Of a stretch of DNA of 64,000 nt, positions 37,926 through 53,843 are shown one piece after another (the first letter of the stretch is position 1; each line of letters starts with the position of its first letter). A program made the position numbers and the translations under genes. The stretch is taken from NCBI RefSeq assembly GCF_009193185.1, contig NZ_VUKF01000003.1, positions 1 to 64,000 of the forward strand, in the 5' to 3' direction. The DNA comes from Georgenia thermotolerans (GTDB lineage: Bacteria; Actinomycetota; Actinomycetes; Actinomycetales; Actinomycetaceae). The notes below the pieces were generated by a model, which ran no database searches, was not told the origin of the DNA, and worked only from the letters and a program-made list of their open reading frames with translations.

Positions 37926-38774
37926 CTACTCGGAAGCGCCAGCGCCCACCGGGATCCCGCCGGCCTTGCTGCCCGAGCTGAGCACCGCCCGGTTGAACAG
38001 GCCCTGGTCGGCCACGATGGTCTGCCCGGTCACCAGCGTGTTGCGCCGCGACGCGAGGAAGGCGTACAGCCAGCCGTACTCCTCCGGCGTGGGCAGGTGC
38101 TGCAGCGGCATAAGCTGCCGGAACTGGCTGAGGAAGTCCTCCTTGGGGATGTCCGACTGCTTGGACGTCTCCAGCCCGAGCGCGGCCGGCCCCTGCAGCT
38201 GGCTGTTGGCGATGCCCGACGGCGCGACGCCGTTGACCCGCACGCGCGGGGCGAACTCGAACGCCAGCTGGTTGACCACGCTGCGCACCGCGCCCTTGCT
38301 CGCCGAGTAGAACAGCCCACCGCCGTCGGCGGCGTAGGCGGCGGTGGAGGACGTGAGGACGATGGCGCCGTCGTTCTCCTCGAGCAGGTCGACGAAGACC
38401 TTCGCCGAGAGGACGTAGCCCTTGACGTTGACGTGGAAGACCTCGTCGAAGAGTGCCGCGATGCGGTCGAGGGGGGTTTCCCGCAGCGGGATGTTGCCGT
38501 CGAAGATGCCCTGGCACCCGATCAGCGCGTTGAGCCGGCCGAAGCGCTCGACGACGGCGTCCCGGGTCGCCTCGAGGTCGGCGACCCGACGGACGTCGCC
38601 CTGCAGGACGAGCACGTCGTCGCCGAACTCGGCCCGGAGCTGGTCGACCTTGTCCTGGGCGATCTCGAGGATCGCGACCTGCGCGCCCTCCGCCAGGCAC
38701 TGGCGGCCGACGCCGAGGCCGAGGCCCGATCCGCCGCCGGTGACGAGGACGACGTGGTCGTCGAGTAGCTGCAT
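37926..38774 (-). CDS. cis-Dihydrodiol dehydrogenase (BphB-like SDR)
   Basis: A 282-residue SDR that should re-aromatise the cis-dihydrodiol made by the Rieske dioxygenase, giving a catechol and NADH. It resembles the cis-2,3-dihydrobiphenyl-2,3-diol dehydrogenase group: TGGGSGLGLGVG cofactor loop, FDEVFHVNVKGYVLSAK, catalytic Ser in LTSSTAAY and YSASK. The substrate loop GIANSQLQGPAALGLETS is typical of the group, though the conserved Asn before the GI segment differs. It is the last gene of the leftward operon, 35 bases after the reductase. Confidence 0.88.
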   Translation of the reverse strand: MQLLDDHVVLVTGGGSGLGLGVGRQCLAEGAQVAILEIAQDKVDQLRAEFGDDVLVLQGDVRRVADLEATRDAVVERFGRLNALIGCQGIFDGNIPLRETPLDRIAALFDEVFHVNVKGYVLSAKVFVDLLEENDGAIVLTSSTAAYAADGGGLFYSASKGAVRSVVNQLAFEFAPRVRVNGVAPSGIANSQLQGPAALGLETSKQSDIPKEDFLSQFRQLMPLQHLPTPEEYGWLYAFLASRRNTLVTGQTIVADQGLFNRAVLSSGSKAGGIPVGAGASE

Positions 38775-38809
38775 GCTTCTCCCTAGAGATGAGTGGGTGG
38801 TGAGGTGTG

Positions 38810-40024: not shown

Positions 40025-40257
40025 CGCGTCTCCTCGGGCCGGGACAGCGAGATCGCCTGGGCCGGGCAGTTGAAGACCGCCTCCTCCAGGTCCTCGAGGT
40101 CCTCGCCGTCGGCGACGGCGAGGCGCAGCACGGCGACCGGGCTGCCCTTGGGCAGGTCGAAGACGTCGGGCAGGATCCCCACGCAGATGCCGTAGGCGCG
40201 GCACCTGGACGTGTCGAGATGGACGGCCACCTGCTCGGCGTGCTTGAGGTCGCTCAC
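40021..40257 (-). CDS. [3Fe-4S]-type ferredoxin
   Basis: A 78-residue ferredoxin carrying electrons to the oxygenase. Three cysteines are seen: Cys19, Cys25 and Cys64 (NCPAQAI). The position of the middle Cys of a CxxCxxC motif is Tyr22 (CRAYGIC), so the cluster should be 3Fe-4S. Such ferredoxins occur in actinobacterial dioxygenases (phenanthrene PhdC type) and P450 systems, unlike the Rieske ferredoxin of classic biphenyl systems. The GTG start overlaps the beta-subunit stop (GTGA), and its stop overlaps the reductase start. Confidence 0.9.
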   Translation of the reverse strand: MSDLKHAEQVAVHLDTSRCRAYGICVGILPDVFDLPKGSPVAVLRLAVADGEDLEDLEEAVFNCPAQAISLSRPEETR

Positions 40258-40790
40258 AGGAACACCGCCAGGTTCGGGGTCGCGAGGCTCGTCTCGGTCG
40301 TCAGCACGCGCCGCGAGAGCAGCCGGGGGCCGGCGGCGGTGAGCCGGATGGTGTCCTCCCGCCGCGCCGGGATGAGGTCGAAGTACGGGTCGATCCCGCG
40401 CTGGCGGTAGAGCAGCAGGGCGCTGGAGACGGCGACGACGTCGGGGGCCTCCATGCCGCGGATCTCGACGCTGCCGACCACCCGCAGGGTGCGCGAGGGC
40501 GGCACCTCGGAGTAGGCGAGGCCGGTGTTGAGGCGGTCGATGCGGGTGCGGATGTGCGCCTTGGTGTCCTTGACGCGGATGCCGCGCTGGGTGAACTCGT
40601 GGCTGCGGGGCTCGGTGGCCTGCCGGACGGGGATCTCGTAGACGAGCTCGTCGTCGAGCAGCTCGTACCACTCCTCCTCACGCCCGTCGTCGAGCAGCCG
40701 CGCCTCCTGGGCGAGGAACTGGGTGACCAGGGCACGCAGCTCCGCGTCGGACGCGGCGGCGGTGGTCGTGGTGGTCTCGGTGGTGGTCAT
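40254..40790 (-). CDS. Aromatic-ring-hydroxylating dioxygenase beta subunit
   Basis: A 178-residue small subunit of the Rieske dioxygenase with an SnoaL/NTF2-like cone fold. Typical stretches are FLAQEARLLDDGREEEWYELL, YEIPVRQATEP, RIDRLNTGLAYSEVPPSRTLRVV and the C-terminal ISLATPNLAVFL-like end (TSLATPNLAVFL). It has a structural role in the alpha3beta3 enzyme. The N-terminus is a Thr-rich run. It starts five bases after the alpha-subunit stop and overlaps the ferredoxin. Confidence 0.93.
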   Translation of the reverse strand: MTTTETTTTTAAASDAELRALVTQFLAQEARLLDDGREEEWYELLDDELVYEIPVRQATEPRSHEFTQRGIRVKDTKAHIRTRIDRLNTGLAYSEVPPSRTLRVVGSVEIRGMEAPDVVAVSSALLLYRQRGIDPYFDLIPARREDTIRLTAAGPRLLSRRVLTTETSLATPNLAVFL

Positions 40791-40795
40791 GTCCG

Positions 40796-42190
40796 TCAGT
40801 TCCCCTCGGTCGGCGAGGTCGGTGCAGCCGCGCCGCGCATGACCTCGAGCCAGTGGCGGTAGAAGGCGAGCTGGACGTGCTCCCCGTAGCCGGTGTTGCG
40901 GCGCAGCCCCGGGCCGGTCCAGGTCGGGTCGGGCGACTGGTCGACCTCGCTGTTGCGGCCCTGCTGGAAGTTGAACTGCATACCCGCCTTGCGCAGCCAG
41001 GGGCTGGCGGCGGCGCGCGGGATGCCCTCCCACGCGACGGTGTCGTCCTGTTCGAAGATGCCCGCCGAGCCGAAGACGAACTCGCCGGTGACGTAGTGCT
41101 CCTCGACCTCCTCCTCGGTCATGAAGTCCCACACGAACTGCCAGCTCCACAGCTCTATCTCGCCCGGGCCGACCGGCTGCCACTGGCGGAAGCTCGTGAC
41201 CACGGACATGGGCCCGCCGGGGACGGCGGGGGTGTTGAACCGGATGAAGCTCAGGTTGGGGAAGATCGTGCCGACGGTGGGCGGCTCGTGGTTGACCACG
41301 TGCAGCTGCGCCTCGTCGAGGCCCGAGAGGTCGAAGTGCTGGGTGATCTCGGGCGGGTAGCCCCAGAGCACGTAGCCCGGGTGGATCGCCTTGGTCCAGG
41401 CGTGGCCGGTGAAGTTGTGGCCGTTGCCGAACTCGTAGCGGCGGCCGATCTCGCAGGAGGCCTGCAGGCCCTGGGAGACGTGGATCTCCTCGGTGCCCCA
41501 GTGCAGCACGTCGAGGTGGTAGACGTCGCCGGAGAAGTTCTCCGCCGCCGTCTTCCAGTCGGCCTTGACCTTGTAGCGGTCCGGCGGCCCGGCCACGCGC
41601 ATGCCCTTCGGGTGCAGGCCGGCGATGAGGTCGAGCATCCAGCCGGCGCCGCCGAGGTACTCGTCGAGGGTGGGCACGTCGGGGTTGAGCGAGGCGAAGA
41701 CGAACCCCTGACGGGTGTCGACCCGCGGGGCGCGCATCAGGCTCCAGTCGTCGGGGTCCAGCCGCACGCCGTAGGCGTCCTGGAGGTGCGGGGTGCCGAC
41801 GAGCTGGCCCTGGTTGTTGTAGGTCCAGCCGTGGTACGGGCACTTGAAGAACCGCGAGTTGCCGCTGTCGGTCTGGCACACCTGGGTGCCGCGGTGGCGG
41901 CAGTAGTTGGACAGGACGTTGATGCCGCCCTTGCCGTCGCGGGTGACGATGACCGGGTCGACGCCGATGCGCCGTTGGACGAAGTCGCCGGGGTTGGGGA
42001 TCTCGCTCTCGTGAGCGACGAACACCCAGTTGTTCGTGAAGATCCGGTCGATCTCGGCGCGGAAGACGGCCTCGTCGTTGAAGATCTCCACGGGCACGAG
42101 GTCGTCGGCCAAGCCGGTCTCGACCCGGTCGAGGATCGCGTCGAGGCCCGCGTCGGACGTCGTCGGACGGAAGGGTTCTGTCTGGGTCAT
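40796..42190 (-). CDS. Aromatic-ring-hydroxylating dioxygenase alpha subunit
   Basis: A 464-residue catalytic subunit. The Rieske [2Fe-2S] ligands are C97-x-H99 (NYCRHRG) and C117-x2-H120 (KCPYHGW). The mononuclear iron site is marked by GDVYHLDVLH (His225, His230, with Asp222 as electron bridge). It resembles actinobacterial polycyclic-aromatic or phthalate-type dioxygenases (HESEIPNPGDFV motif), but the substrate cannot be read. ATG at 42190 has AAGGAG upstream. It is the first gene of a five-gene operon whose promoter carries a LysR dyad (42310-42376). Confidence 0.95.
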   Translation of the reverse strand: MTQTEPFRPTTSDAGLDAILDRVETGLADDLVPVEIFNDEAVFRAEIDRIFTNNWVFVAHESEIPNPGDFVQRRIGVDPVIVTRDGKGGINVLSNYCRHRGTQVCQTDSGNSRFFKCPYHGWTYNNQGQLVGTPHLQDAYGVRLDPDDWSLMRAPRVDTRQGFVFASLNPDVPTLDEYLGGAGWMLDLIAGLHPKGMRVAGPPDRYKVKADWKTAAENFSGDVYHLDVLHWGTEEIHVSQGLQASCEIGRRYEFGNGHNFTGHAWTKAIHPGYVLWGYPPEITQHFDLSGLDEAQLHVVNHEPPTVGTIFPNLSFIRFNTPAVPGGPMSVVTSFRQWQPVGPGEIELWSWQFVWDFMTEEEVEEHYVTGEFVFGSAGIFEQDDTVAWEGIPRAAASPWLRKAGMQFNFQQGRNSEVDQSPDPTWTGPGLRRNTGYGEHVQLAFYRHWLEVMRGAAAPTSPTEGN

Positions 42191-42309: not shown

Positions 42310-42376
42310 AGCGTAAGAGCCGCGCGACATCGCAAAACAGCAATGAATCTGGATAGAGAGCATTGACGCCATCAAT
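42310..42376 (-). promoter_or_regulatory. LysR-regulated promoter of the Rieske operon
   Basis: Minus strand: dyad ATTGA-N5-TCAAT (42376-42362; T-N11-A), then exactly 46 bases, then -10 TACGCT (42315-42310). Eight bases past the dyad is ATC, as at the four sister promoters. The region lies in the 213-base gap between the monooxygenase stop and the alpha-subunit start, so the Rieske operon is transcribed separately. Confidence 0.8.
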
Positions 42377-42403
42377 CCGCGCCTGCCGAGGGGGGCGGTC
42401 GGG

Positions 42404-43585
42404 TCAGGGCGCCACGACGTCGGCCGACCGCTCGAGGCGGAACGGCTTGTTGAGCTCGGCCTCGATGAACGCGGCCTGGCCGGGCAGGTGCTCGCGCAGA
42501 TTCATCGCAAATTCCTCGAGCCCGTCGGCGGTGATGGACATCTCCGTGACGAGGATGCCGTGGGAGACGTCCTGGACGAGCTTGGTCCGGCCGAAGCGGG
42601 CGGCCGAGACCGCCGCGAGCGAGTCCTCCACCGGGCGGTCGCGTGCCAGCTCGTCGGCGAGGACGACGGCGTCCTCCAGGGCCATCGCGGCACCCTGGGT
42701 GAGGTTCGGCGCCGAGGCGTGGGCGGCGTCGCCGAGGACGATCACCCGCCCGACGTGCCACGGCGCCGGCAGGTGCACCTCGCTCAGCGGGCTGTAGACG
42801 ATGCCCTCGAGCGGGAGGTCCTCGCGCAGCTCGGCGACCAGCCCGCCGTAGCCGGCGAGGCGGCGGCGCAGGAGCTCCCGGAAGTCGGCGGGCTCGTAGC
42901 GGGCGTCCTCCGGCTCGGCGGTGACGTGCAGGAGGTACATCTCCTCCCGCGACAACGGGATCACCCCGGTGTTCGACCGGTCGCCGTGAAAGAGCATCGT
43001 GTGGGTGACCTCCGCCGGCCGGGGCAGAGTCACCCGCCACACGGCGAACCCGGTGTACTCGGGCTCGTACGCGTCGCCGAAGAGGCGGCGGCGCAGCGGC
43101 GAGCGGATGCCGTCGAAGCCGACGACGACGTCGAACCGTGCGGCCCGGCCGTCCGTGAACGTGACGGAGACGCCGTCGCCGTCGTCCACGAGCTCGGCCA
43201 CGCTGACGCCGTGGACGATCCGGGCGCCGGCGCGACGCGCGGCGCCGAGGAGGATCCGGTGGAGGTCGGCCCGCGCCAGGGCGTTGTTGGGTGGCACCCG
43301 GTCGGTGCCGAGCGAGCACGGCGTGACGACGATCGGTCGGCCCTGCCAGTCGAGGTGCTCGTTGCGGTCGTACGGGTAGCCCACCGCCAGGCACTCCTCG
43401 AGCACGCCGAGCACGTCGAGGGCCCGCAGGGAGTTGCCTGGCTGGTTGATGCCCACGCCGACGACACGGCTGTCCGGCCGGACCTCGACCACCTCCACGT
43501 CGACACCGTGCCGGCCCAGGGCCGCCGCCGCGCCGAGGCCACCGATGCCGGCACCGACCACCAGAGCATTTCGAACGGGCATCAT
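42404..43585 (-). CDS. FAD-dependent aromatic monooxygenase
   Basis: A 393-residue group A flavoprotein hydroxylase (salicylate/6-hydroxynicotinate monooxygenase-like). FAD-binding: VVGAGIGGLGAAAALGRHG; the DG motif lies near VVGFDGIRSPLRRRLFG; the GD motif is VIVLGDAAHASAPNLTQGAAMALEDAV. It should hydroxylate or decarboxylatively hydroxylate a phenolic or heteroaromatic acid using NAD(P)H. The start is ATG at 43585, five bases after GGAGG; the adjacent ATG at 43582 is equally possible. It is divergent from LysR1, with its own LysR-type promoter at 43614-43680. Confidence 0.9.
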   Translation of the reverse strand: MMPVRNALVVGAGIGGLGAAAALGRHGVDVEVVEVRPDSRVVGVGINQPGNSLRALDVLGVLEECLAVGYPYDRNEHLDWQGRPIVVTPCSLGTDRVPPNNALARADLHRILLGAARRAGARIVHGVSVAELVDDGDGVSVTFTDGRAARFDVVVGFDGIRSPLRRRLFGDAYEPEYTGFAVWRVTLPRPAEVTHTMLFHGDRSNTGVIPLSREEMYLLHVTAEPEDARYEPADFRELLRRRLAGYGGLVAELREDLPLEGIVYSPLSEVHLPAPWHVGRVIVLGDAAHASAPNLTQGAAMALEDAVVLADELARDRPVEDSLAAVSAARFGRTKLVQDVSHGILVTEMSITADGLEEFAMNLREHLPGQAAFIEAELNKPFRLERSADVVAP

Positions 43586-43613
43586 TGCCACCTCCACATC
43601 AGGGAATGCCCGG

Positions 43614-43680
43614 AAGATATGGCGGGACCGCATGGCCGCGGAAACCGATGGTGGTGATACCGGGCATCACCGGGATCGAT
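43614..43680 (-). promoter_or_regulatory. LysR-regulated promoter of the FAD monooxygenase
   Basis: Minus strand: ATCGA-N5-GTGAT (43680-43666, one half-site mismatch to ATYRA-N5-TYRAT), 46 bases, then TATCTT (43619-43614). ATC again falls eight bases after the box, and ATCGGTTTC lies at the same offset as in the hydrolase promoter. The GGTGAT-N7-ATCACC dyad (43653-43671) overlaps it and may serve the divergent lysR gene. Confidence 0.72.
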
Positions 43681-43730
43681 GTGGGCAAACAAGTACCAGC
43701 AACGGCAGTGAATCTCCAGAGGAGTCAGGT

Positions 43731-44663
43731 GTGTCGCAGAAGCTCGCCAACGTCGACCTCAACGTGCTCGTCGCGCTCGACGCGCTGCTCGCCGAGCGCA
43801 GCGTCACGCGTGCCGCCGAGCGGCTGATGATCGGCCAGTCCGCCATGAGCTCGACGCTGGCCCGCCTGCGCCGGATCTTCGACGACCCCCTGCTGGTGCG
43901 CCAGGGCCGCGCCCTGCAGCCCACGCCGCTCGCCGAGTCCCTGGCCGCGCCGGTCCGCGAGGCGCTCGCGATCGTGGAGTCGGTCCTCACGGTGCGCACG
44001 GACTTCGACCCCACCACCGACCACCGGACGTTCACCATCAGCGCGAGCGACTACATCGCTCTCGTCCTGCTCCGGCCCCTCCTGGAACGGCTCAACGAGA
44101 CCGCGCCCAACGTGCGGGTGAACATCGTGCCGATCAACCCCGACGGGTTCACCGACGCCCTGCGCCGCAACGAGACCGACCTGTTGATCCTGCCGCGCGA
44201 GCTGCTCGGGGCGAACGTGGGCTACCCGCACACCACGCTCTTCTCCGACCGGTACCTCGTCGCCGTCGACCGGGACCACCCCGAGGTCGCGGACGAGATC
44301 ACCGTCGAGCAGTTCAGCGCGCTGCCGTACCTCGCCTACCGTGCCGGCACCCTGATCGGCCTGCCCGAGACCCAGCTCGACCAGCAGCAGATCCCGCGCA
44401 ACCTCGAGGTCACCGCCCAGTCCTTCGTCGTGGCGCCCTTCCTGCTCCGCGGCACCGGCCTGATCATGCTCATCCACGAGCACCTGGGCCGCCTGCTCGC
44501 CGAGCAGGCCAACCTCCGGCTGCTGGAGCCGCCGATGCCGCTGGTGCCCCTGCAGGAGACGATGATCTGGACCTCGCGCCACACCGCCGACGTCGCCCAC
44601 CAGTGGCTCCGCGCACGCCTGCTGGAGCTGGCCGGCGAGATCGCCGGGGGAGCGACCTATTGA
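43731..44663 (+). CDS. LysR family regulator (LysR1)
   Basis: A 310-residue LysR-type regulator of the NodD/NahR-like branch. HTH: NVLVALDALLAERSVTRAAERL then MIGQSAMSSTLARLRRIF. The C-terminal effector-binding domain begins near RTFTISASDYIALVLL. GTG start with GAGGAG ten bases upstream. It is strongly similar in order and wording to the second regulator at 48386 (LARLRR-F, LVR-GR-L-PTPLAESL, VAPFLLRGT). It is the likely activator of the five LysR-type promoters around it. Its stop codon TGA lies inside the dyad of the next promoter. Confidence 0.93.
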   Translation: MSQKLANVDLNVLVALDALLAERSVTRAAERLMIGQSAMSSTLARLRRIFDDPLLVRQGRALQPTPLAESLAAPVREALAIVESVLTVRTDFDPTTDHRTFTISASDYIALVLLRPLLERLNETAPNVRVNIVPINPDGFTDALRRNETDLLILPRELLGANVGYPHTTLFSDRYLVAVDRDHPEVADEITVEQFSALPYLAYRAGTLIGLPETQLDQQQIPRNLEVTAQSFVVAPFLLRGTGLIMLIHEHLGRLLAEQANLRLLEPPMPLVPLQETMIWTSRHTADVAHQWLRARLLELAGEIAGGATY

Positions 44664-44725
44664 CGAAGTCGATGTTCCGCATCGCAGATATCGGTTTCCC
44701 CGATCCGGTCGGGCGCCTCTAGCGT
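44659..44725 (+). promoter_or_regulatory. LysR-regulated promoter of the C-C hydrolase gene
   Basis: ATTGA-N5-TCGAT (44659-44673, T-N11-A), 46 bases, -10 TAGCGT (44720-44725). GCATCGC begins six bases past the box and ATCGGTTTC follows near the -35 region. The box includes the stop codon of LysR1. Confidence 0.82.
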
Positions 44726-44791
44726 GCGCGGGCAGGAGGGTGCCGGTCGACGTCGACCGCGACGCCCCGCTACCCGCAGAGAGGCGTCGCC

Positions 44792-45934
44792 GTGTTCGAG
44801 ATCTTCCCCGACAGGTACGTGTGGAACCTGTCCGCCAACATCGCCCTGAGCAGCGGCGGCGAGATCGCGGAGATCCTCGAGGCGTGCCGCCCGCTCCTCG
44901 ACGCCGCCGCGCGCGGGGACGCCCCCGGCACCGAGGACTTCTTCGCGTCCTGGTGCGCCGTCGCCGACCGGCAGGTGGAGCTCGCCGACGAGTACGAGGC
45001 CGCCGGCCGGCCCCTCAGCGCCGGCACCCGCCTGCGCCGGGCCGCCATCTACTACCAGGTGGCCGAGCGCATGCAGGCGCGTGACTTCGCCCCCCGCCGG
45101 CGGGCGTACACCGACGTGCTGGACGCCTTCGAGCGGTCCGTGCGCCTGGGCGGGGAGAACTGCGAGCTCGTCGAGGTGCCGTACGCGGGCACCACGCTCC
45201 CGGCGCTGTTCGTCCGCGCCGAGGGCGCCGACGGCCCCGCGCCGGTCATGGTGCACTTCAACGGCCTGGACAGCACCAAGGAGATGATCTACTGGTCCGG
45301 CATCGGCCAGGAGCTCGCCCGCCGCGGCGTCTCCACGCTCATGGTCGACCACCCCGGCACCGGCGGGGCGCTGCGCCTGCGTGGCCTGACCGCCTTCCCC
45401 GAGAGCGAGCGCTGGGGCGCGGCGTGCGTCGACTACCTCCAGGGACGCGACGACGTCGACCCCGAGCGGATCGGTGTCATGGGCTGGTCGCTCGGCGGCT
45501 ACTACGCCCCGCGCGCGGCGGCGTTCGAGAAGCGGTTCGCCCTGTGCGTGGCGTGGGGGGCGAACTACAACTGGGGCGAGCTGCAGCGCCGCCGGCGCGA
45601 GCGTGAGGGCGAGAACCCCGTCCCGCACTACTGGGAGCACGTCCAGTGGGTCTGGGGCAAGCGCTCCCTCGAGGAGTTTCTGGAGTTCGCGCCGGCCGTC
45701 AGCCTGGTCGGCGTCGTCGAGAAGATCACCGTGCCCTTCCTCGTCACGCACGGGGAGAACGACCGCCAGATCCCGCTCGAGTACGCCCACGCCCAGTACG
45801 ACAACGCCGTCAACAGCCCCAAGCGGGAGCTGAAGATCTTCACGCGCCGGGAGGGCGGCGTCGAGCACGTCAGCGCCGACAACCAGCCCGTCGCCACGAA
45901 CTTCATCGCCGACTGGGTCTCCGAGACCCTCTGA
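44792..45934 (+). CDS. Alpha/beta hydrolase, C-C bond hydrolase-like
   Basis: A 380-residue alpha/beta hydrolase with a helical N-terminal domain, similar in architecture to 2,6-dihydroxypseudooxynicotine hydrolase of nicotine catabolism, which splits a C-C bond beside a ketone. The nucleophile elbow GWSLGGYY gives Ser233; GENDRQI (Asp) and GGVEHVSADN (His) complete a plausible triad. GTG start with GAGAGG upstream. In this island it could hydrolyse a ring-fission product or a side-chain ketone. It is followed 51 bases later by a hairpin, then a binding-protein gene. Confidence 0.82.
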   Translation: MFEIFPDRYVWNLSANIALSSGGEIAEILEACRPLLDAAARGDAPGTEDFFASWCAVADRQVELADEYEAAGRPLSAGTRLRRAAIYYQVAERMQARDFAPRRRAYTDVLDAFERSVRLGGENCELVEVPYAGTTLPALFVRAEGADGPAPVMVHFNGLDSTKEMIYWSGIGQELARRGVSTLMVDHPGTGGALRLRGLTAFPESERWGAACVDYLQGRDDVDPERIGVMGWSLGGYYAPRAAAFEKRFALCVAWGANYNWGELQRRRREREGENPVPHYWEHVQWVWGKRSLEEFLEFAPAVSLVGVVEKITVPFLVTHGENDRQIPLEYAHAQYDNAVNSPKRELKIFTRREGGVEHVSADNQPVATNFIADWVSETL

Positions 45935-45985
45935 CCTCATCGGTGCGGTCTCCGGGGCTTCATGCCCCGCCGCCCTCCGGTCCCA

Positions 45986-46020
45986 CCGGCCGGGTCGCCA
46001 CCCCCCCGCGACCCGGCCGG
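45986..46020 (+). terminator. Hairpin between hydrolase and binding-protein genes
   Basis: A 13-bp perfect stem CCGGCCGGGTCGC/GCGACCCGGCCGG with a nine-base C-rich loop, 51 bases after the hydrolase stop. It may terminate most transcripts, so the following lipoprotein could be expressed at lower level or from its own promoter. Confidence 0.6.
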
Positions 46021-46081
46021 TTGGCACTCGCACGACCCCGGGACGACGACGTCCTGGCGGACCCCCTGACAAGGAGCACTC

Positions 46082-47086
46082 ATGTCGACCACGTCACGAC
46101 CGACCACGGCCGGCCGGGCCGCCCTCCTCGGTCTCGCCGCGCTCGTCCTCGCCGCCTGCGGCTCTTCCGGCGCCGGCGACGAGACGACGACGCCCGCGGG
46201 CGCCGAAGCCACAGCCACGGAAGCGGCCGAGGTCATCCCGATCAAGGTCGGCACCCTGCCCATCGTCGCGACCTCGGCCCTGTGGTACGGCGTCGACAAG
46301 GGCATCTTCACGGAGCACGGACTCGACGTCACGGTCGACACCGGGGTCGGCAGCGAGACGATGGTCGCCGCCACCCTCGCCCACGAGGTCGACTTCGTGA
46401 CCCTGAACTCCGTCTCCCTCATGGTCGCCCTCGACGCCGGCGTGCCGCTGCAGGTCGCCTCCGGCTTCAGCCAGGCGTGGGAGGACGGGGACGAGGACAT
46501 CTCCGCCGTCCTCACCAGGCCCGACTCCGGCATCACGGACGCGGCCGGTCTCGCCGGGCACACCGTCGCGGTCAACACGCTGAACTCGGCGGGCACCCTC
46601 ACCATCAGCGAGGCCGTCCGCGCGGCCGGCGGCGACCCGGAGAAGATCCAGTTCGTCGAGATCCGCTACCCCGACATGATCCGCGCCCTCGAGGCCGGCG
46701 ACGTCGACGCGATCTGGGAGGTCGAGCCGTTCATCACGATCGCCCAGGGCAACGGCGCGCAGATCGCCTCCTGGAACTTCGCCGAGTCGGCGCCGGGCCT
46801 GTCCACCCAGGTCATGGTCACCGCCGCCAACCAGGATGCAGAGGTCGTCGAACGCTTCACCGCGGCCCTGTCCGACGCGCTCAAGGCCGCCGAGGCCGAC
46901 CAGGACGGGCTGCGCCAGGTCCTCGTCGACAAGCTCGAGATGGACCCGGCCCTCGCCGAGCGGGTGCGGATGGACCGGTTCTCGACGGAGATCAACATGG
47001 ACGCGCTGAAGACCCTCGCCGGCCTCGCGCAGGACGAGGGCCTGGTGTCCAAACCGGTCGACCTGGCGGCGTTCGACAAGGGGTGA
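46082..47086 (+). CDS. NMT1/SsuA-like substrate-binding lipoprotein (orphan, first copy)
   Basis: A 334-residue binding lipoprotein: lipobox LVLAAC, Thr/Ala-rich linker, then VGTLPIVATSALWYGVDKGIFTEHGLDV and later YPDMIRALEAGDVDAIWEVEPF, characteristic of the NMT1/SsuA fold. Ribosome binding site AAGGAG. No permease or ATPase lies nearby; the only such genes in the window belong to the sugar-acid operon at 8578-10181. It is clearly related to the third copy at 54917 (IFAEHGLELEL, FPDMLAALAEGQVDAAWVVEPF). It probably delivers the aromatic substrate or serves as a sensor. Confidence 0.9.
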   Translation: MSTTSRPTTAGRAALLGLAALVLAACGSSGAGDETTTPAGAEATATEAAEVIPIKVGTLPIVATSALWYGVDKGIFTEHGLDVTVDTGVGSETMVAATLAHEVDFVTLNSVSLMVALDAGVPLQVASGFSQAWEDGDEDISAVLTRPDSGITDAAGLAGHTVAVNTLNSAGTLTISEAVRAAGGDPEKIQFVEIRYPDMIRALEAGDVDAIWEVEPFITIAQGNGAQIASWNFAESAPGLSTQVMVTAANQDAEVVERFTAALSDALKAAEADQDGLRQVLVDKLEMDPALAERVRMDRFSTEINMDALKTLAGLAQDEGLVSKPVDLAAFDKG

Positions 47087-47119
47087 GGCGGCGCGCCGTC
47101 CATGCCGCACGCCCGCCGC

Positions 47120-47186
47120 ATTGACCGGATCGATCCGCCCCATCCGCCATTGGCTCTTTCCCGGCCGGCGGCGGCGGACCCACAGT
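47120..47186 (+). promoter_or_regulatory. LysR-regulated promoter of the extradiol dioxygenase
   Basis: ATTGA-N5-TCGAT (47120-47134, T-N11-A; part of a 12-bp palindrome CGGATCGATCCG), 46 bases, then CACAGT (47181-47186) as a weak -10. ATC is again eight bases past the box. A TTGACA at 47186-47191 and a CCGCTCG-AGGA-CGAGCGG hairpin (47195-47212) follow within the leader. Confidence 0.68.
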
Positions 47187-47240
47187 TGACACGACCGCTC
47201 GAGGACGAGCGGACCTGACTCGTTGCCTGGAGGCACATCC

Positions 47241-48239
47241 ATGGAAAAGCTGCTCTCCCACCTCGCCTACCTCGAGATCGAGAGCCCCGACGTCGAGGCG
47301 TCGGCGTCCTTCTACGCCGACAACTTCGGGATGAGGATCGTCGACCGCGTCGACGGCGCCGTCTACCTGCGCTGCTGGGGCGACCACTACCGCTACAGCC
47401 TCGTGGTCACCCACGGCCCCCAGCCCCGCCTGAGCCGCATGACCTGGCGGACCGAGAGCCCCGAGGCGCTGGCGGAGGCCGCCCGCCGCGTCGAGGCCGC
47501 GGGCGTGAGCGGGCAGTGGGCCGACGCCGGCCACGCGCACGGCCGCGCCTACGACTTCGTCGGCCCCTACGGCCACCCCATGCGGCTGCTGTGGGAGATC
47601 GAGCGGTTCGAGGCCGAGCCCGAGCAGGCGTCGATCTTCCCCGACCGTCCCGAGAAGCGCAGCAGCCACGCCGGCGCCCCGCGCTTTCTCGACCACGTGA
47701 CCGTCGCCAGCACCGACGTCGACGGCTTCGCGGCCTGGTACCGCGACGTGCTCGGCTTCCGGCTCATGGCCCGCACCCAGCTCGACGACACCAACGTCAG
47801 CGTCTTCTCCGTGCTTACCACCAACGAGAAGTCCCACGACCTCGGCGTCGTCCTCGACCACTCCACCATGCCCGGCCGCGTCAACCACATCGCGTTCTGG
47901 GTGGACACCCACGAGGAGCTGCTCATCAGCGCCGACGTCCTCATGGAGAACGGCACCCCGATGGAGTACGGCCCGGGCGTGCACGGCATCGGGGAGCAGC
48001 AGTACCTCTACTTCCGTGAGCCGAGCGGTCTGCGGGTGGAGCTCAACTCCGGCGGCTATCGCAACTACGTCCCGGACTGGGAGCCCAACACCTGGACCCC
48101 GGGCAAGGGCGGCATGAACTTCTACCGCAACGCGCCCACCGCGATGTCGATCTACGAGTCCTTCCCGCCGGCGGACGGCCTGACCGCCACCGAGGACGGC
48201 GTGCACCCCGACATGGTCGAGGCGCTGACCAACTCCTGA
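47241..48239 (+). CDS. Type I extradiol (catechol 2,3-) dioxygenase
   Basis: A 332-residue two-domain VOC-fold ring-cleavage enzyme. Iron ligands are recognisable as His152 (FLDHVTV), His216 (VNHIAFW) and Glu267 (GLRVEL), with the catalytic His probably in the MPGRVNH/VDTHEEL region. It cleaves a catechol next to its hydroxyls to a semialdehyde or keto product. It has its own ribosome binding site (GGAGG) and LysR promoter and is followed by a strong terminator, so it is monocistronic. The downstream dienoate hydratase and aldolase of a usual meta pathway are not in the window. Confidence 0.92.
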   Translation: MEKLLSHLAYLEIESPDVEASASFYADNFGMRIVDRVDGAVYLRCWGDHYRYSLVVTHGPQPRLSRMTWRTESPEALAEAARRVEAAGVSGQWADAGHAHGRAYDFVGPYGHPMRLLWEIERFEAEPEQASIFPDRPEKRSSHAGAPRFLDHVTVASTDVDGFAAWYRDVLGFRLMARTQLDDTNVSVFSVLTTNEKSHDLGVVLDHSTMPGRVNHIAFWVDTHEELLISADVLMENGTPMEYGPGVHGIGEQQYLYFREPSGLRVELNSGGYRNYVPDWEPNTWTPGKGGMNFYRNAPTAMSIYESFPPADGLTATEDGVHPDMVEALTNS

Positions 48240-48258
48240 GGGCCGCCTCGCGACGTCC

Positions 48259-48289
48259 GGCCCCCGCACGCCAGCGGCGTGCGGGGGCC
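48259..48289 (+). terminator. Terminator after the extradiol dioxygenase
   Basis: A perfect 14-bp stem GGCCCCCGCACGCC/GGCGTGCGGGGGCC with a three-base loop, 20 bases after the stop. The right arm (GCGGCGTGCGGGGGCC) recurs as a direct repeat at 48318-48333. Confidence 0.85.
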
Positions 48290-48385
48290 GGGGTCTGGAC
48301 ACCGGCGAACGGGCTCTGCGGCGTGCGGGGGCCTGGGCACCGGCGCCCTATCCTGCGGACAGCACCCGCCGGCAAGGAAAGACGG

Positions 48386-49312
48386 ATGGACCTGCACCGG
48401 ATCGACCTCAACCTCCTGGTCGCCCTCGACGCCCTGCTCGACGAGCGCAGCGTCACCCGGGCGGCGGACCGGCTGTGCGTGGGCCAGTCGGCCATGAGCG
48501 CCACGCTCGCCCGCCTGCGCAGAGTCTTCGGCGACGAGATCCTCGTGCGCCGCGGCCGCAGCCTCGCGCCGACGCCCCTGGCCGAGTCCCTCGTCGTCCC
48601 GCTGCGCGACATCATGGCCCGCACCGAGGCCCTGCTCGCCGCCCGGGAGGAGTTCGACCCGGCGACCGCCCGGCGCACCTTCACCGTCACCGCGAACGAC
48701 TACGTCTCCACGCTGTTCCTGCGCCCGCTGCTCGTGCGCCTCGCCCGGGAGGCCCCGCACGTCGCCTTCGAGGTCAACGCCACCCGGGACGACTACGCCG
48801 AGCAGTTCCGCCGGCACCAGACCGACCTCCTCATCATGCCCAAGGAGGTCTTCCCCGAGCACGCGGCCTACCCGCACGAGGTGCTCTTCACCGACCGCTA
48901 CGTCTGTGCGGTCGACGCCGAGCACCCGGACGTCGGCGAGGAGCTGCCGCTCGCGCAGTTCAGCACCCTGCCCTACCTCGCCGTCAACATCGGCGCCCTG
49001 CCCTCCTCGGCCGAGCTGCGGCTGGAGGCCCGCGGCATCCTCCGCGACACCCACCTGACCATCCAGGCCCCGCTGGTCGCCCCGTTCCTCCTGCGCGGCA
49101 CCCGGATGGTCATGCACATCCAGGAGCGGCTCGGGGAGATGATCCGCGACGAGGCCGGCATCCGCCTCGTGGAGCCGCCGGTGGAGCTCGGCCCCATCAC
49201 CATGGTGATGATCTGGGGCCGGCACGTCGACGACGACCCCGGGCACCGCTGGCTGCGCCGACGCGCCGCCGAGGTCGCCCGCGACGTCATCCCGACTCAT
49301 CGATCCAATTGA
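48386..49312 (+). CDS. LysR family regulator (LysR2, paralog of LysR1)
   Basis: A 308-residue LysR regulator. HTH: NLLVALDALLDERSVTRAADRL then CVGQSAMSATLARLRRVF; effector domain from RRTFTVTANDYVSTLFLRP. It shares long identical blocks with LysR1, so the pair arose by duplication. ATG with AAGGAAAG upstream; a TATCCT (48349-48354) could be its -10. Its own upstream region lacks the LysR dyad at the 46-base spacing. Its last codons and TGA lie inside the dyad of the hyuA promoter. Confidence 0.93.
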   Translation: MDLHRIDLNLLVALDALLDERSVTRAADRLCVGQSAMSATLARLRRVFGDEILVRRGRSLAPTPLAESLVVPLRDIMARTEALLAAREEFDPATARRTFTVTANDYVSTLFLRPLLVRLAREAPHVAFEVNATRDDYAEQFRRHQTDLLIMPKEVFPEHAAYPHEVLFTDRYVCAVDAEHPDVGEELPLAQFSTLPYLAVNIGALPSSAELRLEARGILRDTHLTIQAPLVAPFLLRGTRMVMHIQERLGEMIRDEAGIRLVEPPVELGPITMVMIWGRHVDDDPGHRWLRRRAAEVARDVIPTHRSN

Positions 49313-49365
49313 TATCTGGCATCGCCAAGTATTGTTTGAATAGATCGATTCCCTGCTCCTAGAGT
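49299..49365 (+). promoter_or_regulatory. LysR-regulated promoter of the hyuAB operon
   Basis: ATCGA-N5-TTGAT (49299-49313, T-N11-A), 46 bases, -10 TAGAGT (49360-49365), with TTGAAT (49336-49341) at 18-base spacing. GGCATCGCC sits six bases past the box, part of an imperfect dyad ATATCTGGC/GCCAAGTAT (49312-49332) that may be the activation site. The dyad box overlaps the LysR2 stop. Confidence 0.82.
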
Positions 49366-49458: not shown

Positions 49459-51588
49459 ATGACCACGATCCTTGACGAGCCCGCGCCGGCGACCGAGATC
49501 CGCACCGACGGCTGGACCATCGGTACCGACGTCGGCGGCACGTTCACCGACCTGTGGCTGCGTGGCCCGGACGGGCAGTCCATCGTCTGCAAGTCGCCCA
49601 CCACCGGCGACGTGGTCACCGGCGTCATCGACGCCGTCCACCTCGCCGCCCGCACCATCGGCCTGGCCGCCGAGGAGCTGTGCCGCCAGGTCACCCGATT
49701 CGGCCACGGCACCACCGTCGGGCTCAACGCCCTCCTCACCGGCCGCACCGCCAAGGTCGGCCTGGTGACCACCCTCGGCTTCGGCGACGTGCTCGAGATC
49801 GGCCGGCTGCGCCGCGGCACCGCCGGCCTGCAGGGCCTGGACCTGGGCAACTACTTCCTGCGCGGGCGCACCGGCCCGCTCGTGTCGCGCGAGCTCGTCG
49901 TCGAGGTCACCGAGCGGGTCAACCCCGCGGGCGAGATCGTCACCCCGCTCGACCTCGTCTCTGCCCGTGCTGCCCTGACCGCCCTCGCCGACGAGGGCGT
50001 CGAGGCCGTGGCGATCTGCCTGCTGTGGGCCACCGAGAACCCCGCCCACGAGCAGGCCCTCGCCGAGCTGGCAGCGGAGATCCTCCCCGGCGCGTACGTC
50101 AGCGCCTCTCACGACGTCGCCCCCGCGGTCGGCGAGTACGCCCGCGCCTCGACCACGGTGGCCAACGCCGCCCTCGGCCCCATCGCCGGCGGCTATCTCG
50201 GCCGCCTCGAGGCCGAGCTGCGCGCGCTGGGGATGACCGCCCCCATCATGATGACCACCAGCGCCGGCGGCGTGGTCCCCGCCGCCACGCTCACCGCCAC
50301 CCCGGTGCGCGGGCTGCTGAGCGGCCCGGCCTCCTGCGTGGTGGCCGGCCAGGCCCTCGGCGTCCGCCTGCGGCAGCGCAACGTCCTGACCCTCGACGTC
50401 GGCGGCACCAGCTTCGACGTCGGCGTCGTCGTCGACGGCGCACCGCTGCTGCGCGAGGAGGTCACCTTCGGCGGCGCCGACATGCGCGTGCCCAGCGTCG
50501 ACATCGCCAGCATCGGCGCCGGCGGCGGCTCCATCGCCGCCGTGCGTGAGGGCGTCCTCACGGTCGGCCCGCGCAGCGCCGGTGCCACCCCCGGGCCCGT
50601 CTGCTACGGCAAGGGCGGCACCGAGCCGACCACCACCGACGCCGACCTCGTCCTCGGCGTGCTCGACCCCGACCGGTTCGGCAGCGGCGGCATCCGCCTC
50701 GACGTCGACGCCGCCCGCGCGGCCCTGGCCGAGCAGGTCGGCGCCCCGCTCGGCCTGACGGCCGTCGAGGCCGCCCGGGCCGTGCGCGAGGTGTTCGACG
50801 CTGCCATGGCCGACCTGCTGCGCGCGGTCACCATCGAGCGCGGTCACGACCCGCGGGAGTTCACCCTCGTCGCCGGCGGCGGGTCCGGGCCCTCCCACGC
50901 CTGGAAGCTGTGCCGCGAGCTGGGGCTGACCGGCTTCGTCGTCCCCGCCACCGCCACCGCTCAGTCCGCCTTCGGGGCCGGCACCTCCGACCTGCGCACC
51001 ACGGCCTCCCGCACCAGCTACCTGCGCCTCTCGCCCGGCCACCAGCCCGAGGAGCACCACGCCGGCGCGCTCGCCGCCGCCCTGGCCGACACCGGCCGGC
51101 GCGCCCTCGACGCCATCCCCGACCCCGCCCACGCCGCGGTCACCCACACCGCCGCCGTGCGCTACCGCGGCCAGACCCACCACCTCGACGTCGCCGTCGG
51201 GCCCACCCCGGACGTCGCCGCCGTGACCGACCTGCTCGCCCGCTTCGAGGCCGAGTACGACAAGCTCTTCGGAGCGGGCGCCGGGTTCCGGGAGGCCGGC
51301 TTCGAGATCCTCTCCGTGCGCGCCGTCGCGGCCCTGCGCTCGGCCACCGTGACCGCGTCGTCCTCCGGTCAGCCCTTCGAGGTCCGGGACGTCCGGCCCG
51401 TCGTCTTCGACGACGCCCACGCACCGGCCGAGACAGTCGTCTACGGCTGCGACTGGCCGGCGCCGGACCAGCACCTCGCCGGCCCCGCCCTCATCCAGCT
51501 CCCCGGGTGCGTCGTCGTCGTCCCGCCCGGCGGCACCGCCACCACCGACGACGCCGGCACCATCCACGTGAAGGTAGGACAGGCATGA
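49459..51588 (+). CDS. Hydantoinase/oxoprolinase family protein, subunit A
   Basis: A 709-residue HyuA-type subunit with the ASKHA ATP-binding fold: IGTDVGGTFTDLWL at the N-terminus, GHGTTVGLNALL, LTLDVGGTSFDVGVV and VAGGGSGPSHAW. The superfamily includes ATP-dependent hydantoinases, 5-oxoprolinase and acetone/acetophenone carboxylases. The length and separate B subunit fit any of these. It heads a five-gene operon (HyuA, HyuB, BKACE, binding protein, CoA synthetase). Co-occurrence with BKACE and a CoA ligase makes a ketone carboxylase role attractive, but amide hydrolysis remains possible. Confidence 0.9.
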   Translation: MTTILDEPAPATEIRTDGWTIGTDVGGTFTDLWLRGPDGQSIVCKSPTTGDVVTGVIDAVHLAARTIGLAAEELCRQVTRFGHGTTVGLNALLTGRTAKVGLVTTLGFGDVLEIGRLRRGTAGLQGLDLGNYFLRGRTGPLVSRELVVEVTERVNPAGEIVTPLDLVSARAALTALADEGVEAVAICLLWATENPAHEQALAELAAEILPGAYVSASHDVAPAVGEYARASTTVANAALGPIAGGYLGRLEAELRALGMTAPIMMTTSAGGVVPAATLTATPVRGLLSGPASCVVAGQALGVRLRQRNVLTLDVGGTSFDVGVVVDGAPLLREEVTFGGADMRVPSVDIASIGAGGGSIAAVREGVLTVGPRSAGATPGPVCYGKGGTEPTTTDADLVLGVLDPDRFGSGGIRLDVDAARAALAEQVGAPLGLTAVEAARAVREVFDAAMADLLRAVTIERGHDPREFTLVAGGGSGPSHAWKLCRELGLTGFVVPATATAQSAFGAGTSDLRTTASRTSYLRLSPGHQPEEHHAGALAAALADTGRRALDAIPDPAHAAVTHTAAVRYRGQTHHLDVAVGPTPDVAAVTDLLARFEAEYDKLFGAGAGFREAGFEILSVRAVAALRSATVTASSSGQPFEVRDVRPVVFDDAHAPAETVVYGCDWPAPDQHLAGPALIQLPGCVVVVPPGGTATTDDAGTIHVKVGQA

Positions 51589-53843
51589 GCACCATCGACG
51601 TCCCGACGCAGGCGCCCACCACCGACCCGGTCGTCGCGCAGGTCGTCCGCAGCCGCCTGGTGGCCATCACCGACCAGATGCGCCTGGCGCTGCAGTCCGT
51701 CAGCGGCAGCCCCACGGTCACCGAGGCGAGCGACTTCTTCACCGGCCTTTACCTGCCGGACGGGTCCTTCGCCACCATGGGCCACCAGGTCACCTTCGAG
51801 GCCCCGCCGGTCGGCGCCCTCATCCGGCACCTGCTCGCTGGCGGCCGCAGGCTGCGCGACGGCGACCGGATCGTCGGGAACGACCCCTTCGTCGGCGCAC
51901 TGCACCAGAACGACCTGCAGATGTGCGCCCCGCTGTTCGTCGACGGCGAGCTCGTGGCCTGGGCCGGCGTGATGGCCCACGAGACCGACATCGGCGGGAT
52001 GGACTTCGCGTCCTGGTCCCCCAAGGCCAAGGAGATCTGGCAGGAGGGCCTGCGCATCCCCGCCGTCACCCTGGTCTCCGAGGGCGAGCTGCGCGAGGAC
52101 GTCCTCGAGATGATCCTGTCCGCCTCCCGGCTGCCCGCCCAGCTCGGCCTCGACATCCGGGCCTTCATCGCCACCCTCAACGTCGCCGCCGAGCGGCTCG
52201 TGGAGCTGTGCCACCGGTACGGCACCGACGTGGTCCAGGGCGCCATGGCCGCCATGGTCGACGACGCCGAGACCCGGCTGCGCCGCCGGCTGCTGGAGAT
52301 GCCCGACGGCGTGGTGCACACCCGCGACTTCCTCGAGCACGACGGCCACACCGACGCGCTCTATGCCGTCGACCTCGTGCTGACGAAGCAGGGGGACCGG
52401 CTCACCCTGGACTTCTCAGGCTCCTCGGGGCAGGCTCCCGGCTTCGTCAACTGCTCGCGGGCGGGCCTGGCCGGGGGCGTGGCCGGCGCGCTGATCCCCA
52501 CGCTCGGCTTCGAGATCCCGTGGAACGACGGGCTGCTGCGCCCGGTGGAGATCGTCGCCCCCGACGGGCTCGTGTGCACCGCGGTCCCGCCGGCGCCGGT
52601 GGGCAGCGCCACGGTGGAGACCGTCTGGGTGGTCAGCAACGTCGTCTCCGGTGCGCTCAACCGGCTCCTCGCCGCCACGCCCGCCTACGCCCACCGCGCC
52701 CAGGCCGTCAGCAGCGGGACCATGGCCACCTTCAACCTCTCCGGCCGCAACCAGTTCGGCGAGGTGTTCGGGCTGCACCTCATGGACCCCCTCGCGGGCG
52801 GCTTCGGCGCCTTCGCCAGCCGCGACGGCCAGGACGCCGCCGGGCCCATCAACGCCCCGTGCCCCTCCATCGCCGACGTCGAGGTCAACGAGCTGGGCAC
52901 CCCGCTCGTGTACCTCTACCGCCGCCTCGCCCAGGACACCGGCGGCGCGGGCCGGCACCGCGGCGGCATGGGCGCCGAGGTGGCCCTGACCATCTCCGTC
53001 CCCGAGGCCGAGGCCCTGGTGATGACGCACGGCGCCGAGGTCCCCAACTCCGCCGGGCTCTCCGGCGGCCTGCCCGGCGGGCTCATCCACCAGTCCTTCG
53101 CCCGCGCCATCATGCGCGACGCCACCGAGTCGGCCCGGACGGCCGCGCTGCTGCGCGGGCGCACCGACACCGACCCCCGCTTCACCAACCTCGGTCCCAA
53201 GCCCGGCGCCTTCCCCATCACCGGGCAGGACGTCTTCGCCGTGACCTGGCAGGGCGGCGGCGGGATCGGCGACCCGCTCGACCGCGACCCGGCCGCCGTC
53301 CTCGCCGACGTGCGCCGCGGCGTCGTCAGCACCCAGGCCGCCCGGGAGACCTACGGCGTCGCCCTCACCCCGTCGGGCAGCGCCCGGGCGACGGGCTGGG
53401 ACGCGGCGGAGACCGCGCGGCTGCGGCGGCAGGCCCGCGCGCAGCGGCTCGGCGTCGCCACCGACCGGGTGCCGGAGACCTGCCGCAGCCTCGACCCGGC
53501 GCTGCCACCCGCGGGCCTGCGCGCGGGGGAGCGGTGGCTGCCGCTGTCGGACCGGCTGCGCGCCATCCGCGGCACCGACGGGACGTGGCGGGTGGGGACC
53601 GTCGACGGCGCGCTGCTGGTCACCGGCTCGACCCGGTGGCGCCGAGGCGCCCACCGTGTCGCCCTCGCCCTGCCCGAGCGGGCCGGCGCCACCCTCCACG
53701 AGGACCTCGCCGTCACCGGCTGGGCCTGCCCGGTCACCGGTCACCTCCTCGCCGTCGACGTCCACCCGGCCGGCACCGACCCGATCGACGACCTGGACCT
53801 GTCCCTGGACGACCGCGCCGCCCGGCTCACGCTCCCCGCCTGA
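51585..53843 (+). CDS. Hydantoinase/oxoprolinase family protein, subunit B
   Basis: A 752-residue HyuB-type subunit; ATG overlaps the hyuA stop (ATGA). Family stretches: VRSRLVAITDQMRLALQSVSGSP, the NDPFVGALHQNDLQM loop (metal/substrate region), GHTDIGG-like AHETDIGGMDF, and GGAGRHRGGMGAE near residue 460. The C-terminal 150 residues, including a GTWRVGTVDGALLVTGSTRWRR segment, extend beyond the usual HyuB core (about 550-600 residues) and resemble an appended domain of unknown role. It works with HyuA as a heteromer. Confidence 0.9.
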   Translation: MSTIDVPTQAPTTDPVVAQVVRSRLVAITDQMRLALQSVSGSPTVTEASDFFTGLYLPDGSFATMGHQVTFEAPPVGALIRHLLAGGRRLRDGDRIVGNDPFVGALHQNDLQMCAPLFVDGELVAWAGVMAHETDIGGMDFASWSPKAKEIWQEGLRIPAVTLVSEGELREDVLEMILSASRLPAQLGLDIRAFIATLNVAAERLVELCHRYGTDVVQGAMAAMVDDAETRLRRRLLEMPDGVVHTRDFLEHDGHTDALYAVDLVLTKQGDRLTLDFSGSSGQAPGFVNCSRAGLAGGVAGALIPTLGFEIPWNDGLLRPVEIVAPDGLVCTAVPPAPVGSATVETVWVVSNVVSGALNRLLAATPAYAHRAQAVSSGTMATFNLSGRNQFGEVFGLHLMDPLAGGFGAFASRDGQDAAGPINAPCPSIADVEVNELGTPLVYLYRRLAQDTGGAGRHRGGMGAEVALTISVPEAEALVMTHGAEVPNSAGLSGGLPGGLIHQSFARAIMRDATESARTAALLRGRTDTDPRFTNLGPKPGAFPITGQDVFAVTWQGGGGIGDPLDRDPAAVLADVRRGVVSTQAARETYGVALTPSGSARATGWDAAETARLRRQARAQRLGVATDRVPETCRSLDPALPPAGLRAGERWLPLSDRLRAIRGTDGTWRVGTVDGALLVTGSTRWRRGAHRVALALPERAGATLHEDLAVTGWACPVTGHLLAVDVHPAGTDPIDDLDLSLDDRAARLTLPA

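Follow-up and report, generated by a model that had tools for sequence, protein, structure and literature searches.

What controls the aromatic-catabolism genes of Georgenia thermotolerans clustered in the window, the 64,000-nucleotide stretch of DNA analyzed here? On the minus strand, the island encodes an FAD monooxygenase of the PRK06847 subfamily (42,404–43,585), the alpha (HcaE/BenA-like; 40,796–42,190) and beta (40,254–40,796) subunits of a Rieske dioxygenase, an HcaD-like ferredoxin reductase (38,810–40,138) and an HcaB/BphB-like SDR dihydrodiol dehydrogenase (37,926–38,780), the starts of the last two being uncertain. The plus strand carries an alpha/beta hydrolase related to 2,6-dihydroxy-pseudo-oxynicotine hydrolase (44,792–45,934; 2jbw, E 4e-24), an NMT1/SsuA-like substrate-binding protein (46,082–47,086), a catechol 2,3-dioxygenase-like extradiol dioxygenase (47,241–48,239) and HyuA (caprolactamase alpha/acetophenone carboxylase-like; 49,459–51,588), followed by HyuB (51,585–53,843), the beta-keto acid cleavage enzyme BKACE (53,893–54,807; start uncertain), a second SsuA-like substrate-binding protein (54,917–55,906) and an NDP-forming acyl-CoA synthetase (55,962–58,022). 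Two LysR-type genes, LysR1 (43,731–44,663) and LysR2 (48,386–49,312), lie on the same strand. The original prediction held that five promoters of this island have one LysR-type layout and belong to one regulon.

Five island promoters with one layout

Each of the five predicted 15-bp boxes was found in place, 46 nt ahead of its predicted -10 hexamer. The monooxygenase box (43,666–43,680, minus strand) sits in the divergent LysR1/monooxygenase gap and precedes TATCTT (43,614–43,619), and the Rieske operon box (42,362–42,376, minus strand) precedes TACGCT (42,310–42,315). On the plus strand, the hydrolase box (44,659–44,673) overlaps the LysR1 stop codon and is followed by TAGCGT (44,720–44,725), the extradiol box (47,120–47,134) by CACAGT (47,181–47,186), and the hyuAB box (49,299–49,313), which overlaps the LysR2 stop codon, by TAGAGT (49,360–49,365). 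No box of its own was seen for the first SsuA-like gene. The predicted dyad, ATYRA-N5-TYRAT, is exact in four of the five boxes and has one mismatch in that of the monooxygenase, and a T-N11-A inverted repeat (T2 and A14) is present in all five. The ATC triplet expected downstream lies 7 nt past the box in every window promoter. Four of the five hexamers read TANNNT, the -10-like CACAGT of the extradiol promoter being the exception. If transcription starts ∼7 nt past the hexamer, the box is centered at about -66. The box in the LysR1/monooxygenase gap is presumably also autoregulatory for LysR1.

The layout is restricted to the island in its genome

The 4.64-Mb genome contains 14 exact copies of the dyad, four of which fall inside the island, within 6,952 bp (Poisson P ∼2e-9). 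When all 14 were read in both orientations (28 readings), ATC stood at the right place only in the four gene-facing island readings. Three of these also had TANNNT at +46, a pattern that is scarce in the window (35 of 128,000 positions). None of the 20 readings of the 10 non-island dyads had ATC or TANNNT at these positions.

A cross-genome profile was built from 15 promoters belonging to three further Georgenia genomes. It placed the island promoters at ranks 1–5 genome-wide (E 2.2e-10 to 1.6e-5) and the next match at E 0.223, with 150 of 2949 first-look candidates scored. In leave-one-class-out tests, the held-out window site ranked fifth, behind only its four training sites, and stood ∼9 to 30 bits over the best non-island position (127,866 positions). 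Dyad and spacing elsewhere in the genome had been named as a potential refutation, and no such pattern appeared among the non-island dyads or profile matches. The additional sites hoped for at lower-pathway genes did not turn up either: among the 150 of 2949 candidates scored, there was no further match at E <0.2, and thus no further regulon member in this genome.

Conservation across Georgenia

LysR1 was found in five of nine genus genomes, all five of which carry the boxes. Alignment of the island promoters in relatives showed that the box, the ATC-type element and the -10 are retained. In four Georgenia genomes, all five promoters keep the box, AT[C/T] 7 nt on and a -10 at 45–46, and 17 of their 20 dyads match the predicted consensus exactly. 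A fifth genome, G788, keeps the same elements in four promoters; it was outside the profile training set, and the cross-genome profile recovered its four island promoters. The fixed 46-base spacing holds in all five window promoters, whereas in relatives it is 45 or 46. Across 25 Georgenia promoters, the spacing to TANNNT is 45 in 8 cases and 46 in 12; the other five, all extradiol promoters, have CACAGT at 46, identical in all five island-bearing genomes. In five genomes, the monooxygenase promoter has its TATCTT at 45 or 46.

G788 lacks both LysR2 and the hyu box and retains LysR1 and the other four boxes, so that the single regulon predicted may consist of two linked sub-regulons. In G. ruanii, a second hyuAB lies on the same contig as a third such LysR and is preceded by a box, 46 nt and TACAGT; this extra hyuAB is ∼32 kb from the LysR2-like gene on its contig. 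The hyu promoters have a -35 element of their own in common, and the hyu promoter seems to form a sub-class apart.

With the island sites and the second G782 hyuAB set aside, the profile gave eight other matches in the genus, with E between 7e-4 and 0.1; G781 and G785 have two each, and G783, G784, G786 and G788 have one each. Among the five that were inspected, four alignments end before the -10, and no relative of the 20 window proteins tried is encoded in any of the five stretches.

Two NodD/NahR-type regulators and their relatives

LysR1 (310 aa) was assigned to the NodD/NahR type from its Pfam domains and solved relatives. It and its paralogue LysR2 each have an N-terminal HTH_1 and a LysR_substrate domain above the Pfam cut-off, and they are 72% identical over the N-terminal 70-odd residues and ∼50% overall. 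Among the best solved relatives of LysR1 are 1utb (E 1.5e-38), which we take to be DntR, and 4rns, a regulator of pentachlorophenol degradation; such catabolic regulators, of the DntR/NahR and PcpR types, belong to hosts and pathways other than this island's. With at most five candidates scored per genome, a phylum-wide LysR1 search at E 1e-58 recovered only the window's genome among 396; the order-wide LysR search likewise scored at most five per genome.

In six of nine distant genomes, a profile match, in most cases weak when taken singly, lay within ∼1.5 kb of a ∼40%-identical NodD-like LysR gene (E 5e-6 in one, 0.002 to 0.06 in the rest), and in five of the nine the match near LysR was the genome's best listed match. 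G060, G163 and G164 had no profile match near the LysR gene, and G163 has a better one (E 1.7e-4) away from it. The profile was blank in the Mycolicibacterium locus L029 and in L046 and L047, where box-like sites are visible by pattern; the LysR genes of L046 and L047 are ∼50% identical to LysR1.

A probable LysR-type regulon and its alternatives

The elements are conserved in the genus, confined to the island in this genome and found together with LysR genes. Given these conserved promoters and the adjoining LysR genes, we consider it highly probable that a LysR-type regulon acts at the five boxes. A common regulon thus stands as the best reading, with the correction that the island has two paralogous regulators rather than one. 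One LysR-type site at a fixed distance in five promoters implies that the genes of the pathway are probably activated as a group, by one regulator or two sister regulators. We infer binding at the boxes, an inducer and activation rather than repression. NodD/NahR-type LysR regulators would recognize the five sites, with the 15-bp T-N11-A dyad near -66 anchoring one dimer of a LysR tetramer and the ATC 7 nt on, with a TTTCC- or TTGTTTGA-like element, providing a weaker activation site over the -35. An inducer, probably an aromatic substrate or intermediate of the pathway, would bind LysR, and the inducer-bound tetramer would contact RNA polymerase at the -10, thereby activating all five operons (Rieske, monooxygenase, hydrolase, extradiol and hyuAB) in concert. 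LysR2 should read nearly the same box as LysR1. On the strength of one LysR2-less genome and the sequence classes, we lean slightly toward a division of labor in which hyuAB would fall to LysR2, and the other four promoters, along with the divergent promoter of LysR1 itself, to LysR1.

Control of all five promoters by LysR1, with LysR2 redundant or in another role, is a tentative alternative that we hold to be possible but somewhat doubtful. It would fit the single kind of 15-bp box, the higher identity of the regulators' N-termini than of the whole proteins, and the persistence of LysR1 with four boxes in G788. It does not account for the joint loss of LysR2 and the hyu box from that genome, for the -35 element peculiar to hyu promoters, or for the location of the extra G. 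ruanii hyuAB, which shares its contig with a LysR2-like gene. That the box is instead the operator of another regulator, or part of an alternative-sigma promoter, with the LysR genes as bystanders, is very unlikely. Some LysR relatives do have no detectable site nearby, yet in several families the element is found alongside LysR homologues. Sigma-factor promoter elements are not known to sit 46 nt from the -10, as the box does. Moreover, T-N11-A symmetry near -66 is the LysR signature (PMC5603801).

Two further explanations concern the likeness of the promoters itself. Sites less than 7 kb apart could be alike only through recent duplication of promoter DNA. The five promoters exceed all 500 random sets in mutual identity at the box, ATC and -10, far above background, and are not clearly above it in the remainder of the 67 bp; similarity reaching into the flanks was sought and was absent, identity being at background on both sides. 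The promoters are therefore not duplicated DNA, and the sites are also maintained across diverged genomes, which makes this explanation extremely improbable. Chance deserves attention because the features were chosen after being seen, but they recur in other genomes and in held-out promoters. The judgment that chance was very unlikely is upheld by the dyad counts, the genome-wide profile ranks and the leave-one-class-out tests, and we give a chance pattern practically no credence.

Relation to known LysR systems

The control mechanism itself is already familiar, the layout being standard for LysR. LysR-type promoters combine a T-N11-A recognition site around -65 with an activation site around -35 (PMC5603801). 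The island matches such promoters in dyad type, inferred position, divergent regulator gene and the element over the -35, and differs in having five promoters of one rigid geometry in 7 kb with two paralogous regulators. Two related LysR proteins per catabolic pathway are also described, in PMC5603801 and PMC6449761, for PnpR/PnpM of Pseudomonas WBC-3 and for BenM/CatM; these pairs resemble the island's in that respect, but their box sequences and genes are unlike those of the island.

A second likeness is to the nod box. Compared with three nod boxes of S. meliloti pSymA, the island has an identical register of 15-bp dyad, 7 nt and ATC in all five window promoters. The exact ATC-N9-GAT dyad ends occur in two of the five, the other dyads starting with ATT and one ending in AAT, and a further ATCG half-site 6 nt on, as in S. 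meliloti, is also present in two. The island promoters do not share the remainder of the nod box, whose 3' half differs. The whole 47-bp nod box is absent, and even with E allowed up to 5 the island profile matched nothing in the S. meliloti stretch. Since a loose search pattern hit 20 places within those 45 kb, the register alone is weak evidence. LysR1 is 35–36% identical to annotated NodD2 proteins; NodD controls nodulation genes in answer to flavonoids, whereas the island's LysR genes neighbor aromatic catabolic genes. One possibility, though an unlikely one, is a two-regulator code, in which NodD-like paralogues use one dyad and the -35 element picks the activator (TTTCC-type for LysR1, TTGTTTGA-type for LysR2); a register common with the nod box would mean that the nod box descends from an older aromatic-catabolism promoter design. 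Our search of the open-licence literature found no paper on this island or on LysR control of aromatics in Georgenia, and we recognized in it no description of nod-box-like sites in Actinobacteria.

The island offers a sharply defined promoter set, which the searches made here detected at no other place in this genome. The set would tie the Rieske dioxygenase, flavin hydroxylase, ring-cleavage enzyme and hydrolase, together with the HyuAB-BKACE-CoA ligase branch, into one regulatory unit, and with their promoters so joined it is very likely that the enzymes share a substrate. G788, having neither LysR2 nor the hyu box, provides a natural test case for how duplicated LysR regulators divide promoters between them, and the island may be an actinobacterial counterpart of the nod box register.

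Five promoters of the aromatic island share one layout

The original prediction joined five promoters of the aromatic-degradation island into a single LysR regulon, and all five sites are present in the window sequence: those of the monooxygenase (43680-43666; box ATCGATCCCGGTGAT, -10 TATCTT), the Rieske operon (42376-42362; box ATTGATGGCGTCAAT, -10 TACGCT), the hydrolase (44659-44673; box ATTGACGAAGTCGAT, -10 TAGCGT), the extradiol dioxygenase (47120-47134; box ATTGACCGGATCGAT, hexamer CACAGT) and hyuAB (49299-49313; box ATCGATCCAATTGAT, -10 TAGAGT). Read toward the gene, each comprises a 15-bp dyad, 7 nt, ATC, 36 nt and the hexamer; the ATC claimed to hold a fixed place after the box was thus found in 5/5. 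TANNNT is scarce in the window (35/128,000 positions). The exact dyad occurs in 14 copies in the 4,638,305-bp genome, giving 28 readings; ATC stands at that place in four of them, only the gene-facing island ones, three of which also have TANNNT at +46. Recurrence of the dyad with its 46-nt spacing at unrelated genes would have spoken against a regulon, and across the whole genome neither the ATC nor TANNNT at +46 appears in any of the 20 readings that fall outside the island. In a five-way comparison of the promoters, identity at the box, at the ATC and at the -10 exceeds all 500 random sets; outside it is at background level. In the stretches between these elements it is not clearly above background, the observed value being reached by 115, 60 and 154 of the 500 random sets.

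The promoter set is conserved in Georgenia

A LysR1 search of assembled contigs returned six loci: three from Georgenia (96, 89 and 85% identity), two from Mycobacteriaceae (49%) and one from Vibrio (27%). Gene order from dehydrogenase to BKACE is the same in the three Georgenia, as far as the loci reach, and the proposed comparison with related genomes recovered all five boxes in each. Across four Georgenia genomes, 17/20 dyads match the predicted consensus exactly; at the hyu promoter, ATT replaces ATC in two of the three relatives. We then considered 25 promoters from five Georgenia genomes including G788, with the additional hyuAB copy of G. ruanii among them. All 25 have AT[C/T] 7 nt past the box; TANNNT starts at offset 45 in eight and 46 in 12, and at any other offset from 28 to 104 it is absent from all 25; the extradiol promoters carry CACAGT at 46 in 5/5 genomes. 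The exact 46-base spacing therefore holds for all five window promoters, while relatives vary between 45 and 46.

We built R1, a sequence-only profile, from the 15 promoters of the three other Georgenia (G782, which is G. ruanii, G784 and G785), leaving out the window sequence. With 150 of 2949 first-look candidates scored in the window's genome, the five promoters took ranks 1-5 (E 2.2e-10, 3.3e-10, 9.3e-9, 1.1e-7 and 1.6e-5) and the sixth match reached only E 0.223. Because the training promoters are orthologous, we added a leave-one-class-out test, with a matrix drawn, over four genomes, from the remaining four promoter classes. Every window site left out in this way came fifth, with just the four training sites ahead of it, and outscored the best other position of 127,866 by 9.4 to 29.9 bits.

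LysR1 and the promoter set occur in five of nine Georgenia genomes surveyed, the window's included. In G781, G783, G786 and G787 a LysR search at E 1e-40 found nothing (all candidates scored), and R1 listed nothing better than E 0.004 (150 candidates scored each). In G788, independent of R1 training, four promoters were recovered (E 2.0e-9 to 1.4e-6); no LysR2 was found there, and R1 detected no fifth box across the 17-kb island stretch. HyuA lies directly downstream of the extradiol gene in this genome (L075 5636-6763), and hyuAB may be transcribed from the extradiol promoter. The second hyuAB of G. ruanii, on another contig (L076 3079-3145), is preceded by box ATCAGTGACGGTGAT, 46 nt and TACAGT; a third NodD-type LysR (G782:C3:113273-114178), 62% identical to LysR2, lies ~32 kb away on the same contig. 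In the window's genome, a search at E 1e-60 shows a single HyuA.

Similar sites recur beside LysR genes in distant genomes

Nine order-level genomes encoding a LysR ~40% identical to LysR1 were searched whole with R1 (150 candidates scored each). Six (G134, G148, G162, G176, G078 and G064) have a match within ~1.5 kb of the LysR, the best listed in five and second in G078, with E 5e-6 in G148 and 0.002 to 0.06 for the remaining five; the match in G134 (L017) is flanked by the LysR on one side and a 66%-identical extradiol gene on the other. G060, G163 and G164 showed no R1 match near the LysR among the 150 candidates scored in each; G163 has a better one (1.7e-4), but away from it. Taken singly these matches are weak, and their weight rests on the recurring position.

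The two Mycobacteriaceae loci (L029 and L030, ~9.9-12 kb) carry a tandem LysR pair near a 63%-identical Rieske operon. Box-like sites stand upstream of the Rieske genes and of the LysR pair; their TANNNT is at 46 or 47 and their ATC 8 nt past the box, compared with 7 in Georgenia; R1 finds sites in L030 and none in L029. On plasmid pR1CP1 of Rhodococcus opacus 1CP, box-like sites (L048 11926 (-) and 12976 (+)) flank on both sides a LysR adjoining the npcA (4-nitrophenol monooxygenase) operon, with TANNNT at 45 and 46; one is matched by R1 (E 0.004). R1 gave no site in loci L046 and L047.

Enzymes of the island and other window genes

The Rieske alpha, beta, reductase and dehydrogenase are nearest HcaEFDB/BphB-type models, with scores under the cut-offs. 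Only ~116 bp separate Rieske beta from the reductase (40138-40254), so a ferredoxin gene seems not to fit, unlike in Rhodococcus USK13 (L047), which has one at that place. The hydrolase is a relative of 2,6-dihydroxy-pseudo-oxynicotine hydrolase, the ring-cleavage enzyme is related to catechol 2,3-dioxygenase (under that model's cut-off), and HyuAB, followed downstream by BKACE and then a CoA synthetase, shows below-cut-off similarity to caprolactamase and acetophenone carboxylase.

Elsewhere in the window, a DnaB helicase gene (33849-36452) is broken up by a LAGLIDADG homing endonuclease domain and probably carries an intein, and one protein (58134-59798) has an N-terminus with a weak response-regulator-like match fused to a thioredoxin-reductase-like domain.

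Two regulators may divide the promoters

LysR1 and LysR2 each have both LysR domains and are ~50% identical overall, rising to 72% across the N-terminal 70-odd residues holding the HTH. Among solved structures, 1utb (DntR) and related entries are closest to LysR1 (E 1.5e-38), and PcpR-type 4rns is also matched; plasmid relatives of LysR1 include annotated NodD2 proteins (35-36% identity). In a 29-row tree, with deep forks poorly supported and several branches long, Georgenia LysR1 and LysR2 form separate clades and each Mycobacteriaceae tandem pair groups with the other, which suggests separate duplications.

The -35 element takes two forms. Hydrolase, monooxygenase and extradiol promoters mostly have TTTCC or CTTCC, with TTTCT at the extradiol gene in L028 and L075, and Rieske promoters are mixed; the hyu promoters carry ATTGTTTGAA, or ATTGTTGGAG in the case of L028. 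From these two forms, and from G788 lacking both LysR2 and the hyu box, we lean slightly toward LysR1 acting at four promoters and LysR2 at hyuAB, the weakest step of this account. PnpR/PnpM and BenM/CatM are precedents for a pair of LysR proteins controlling a single pathway (PMC5603801, PMC6449761).

Three sequences of the form ATC-N9-GAT, 7 nt, ATC occur on S. meliloti pSymA. The stretch carries no annotation, and we take these by their motif to be nod boxes. R1 matched none of the three and a loose pattern matched 20 times across 45 kb of pSymA; the likeness to the Georgenia boxes is therefore in register only, weak evidence when taken alone. Our description of the nod box follows PMC5596368.

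In the standard model (PMC5603801), a LysR tetramer holds a T-N11-A site near -65 together with a second, weaker one near -35; the boxes here would be centred near -66 if transcription starts ~7 nt past the hexamer. Altogether, the predicted LysR regulon is very probably real and well conserved, with an ordinary mechanism, and its added interest would lie in the arrangement of two regulators and in the nod-box register.
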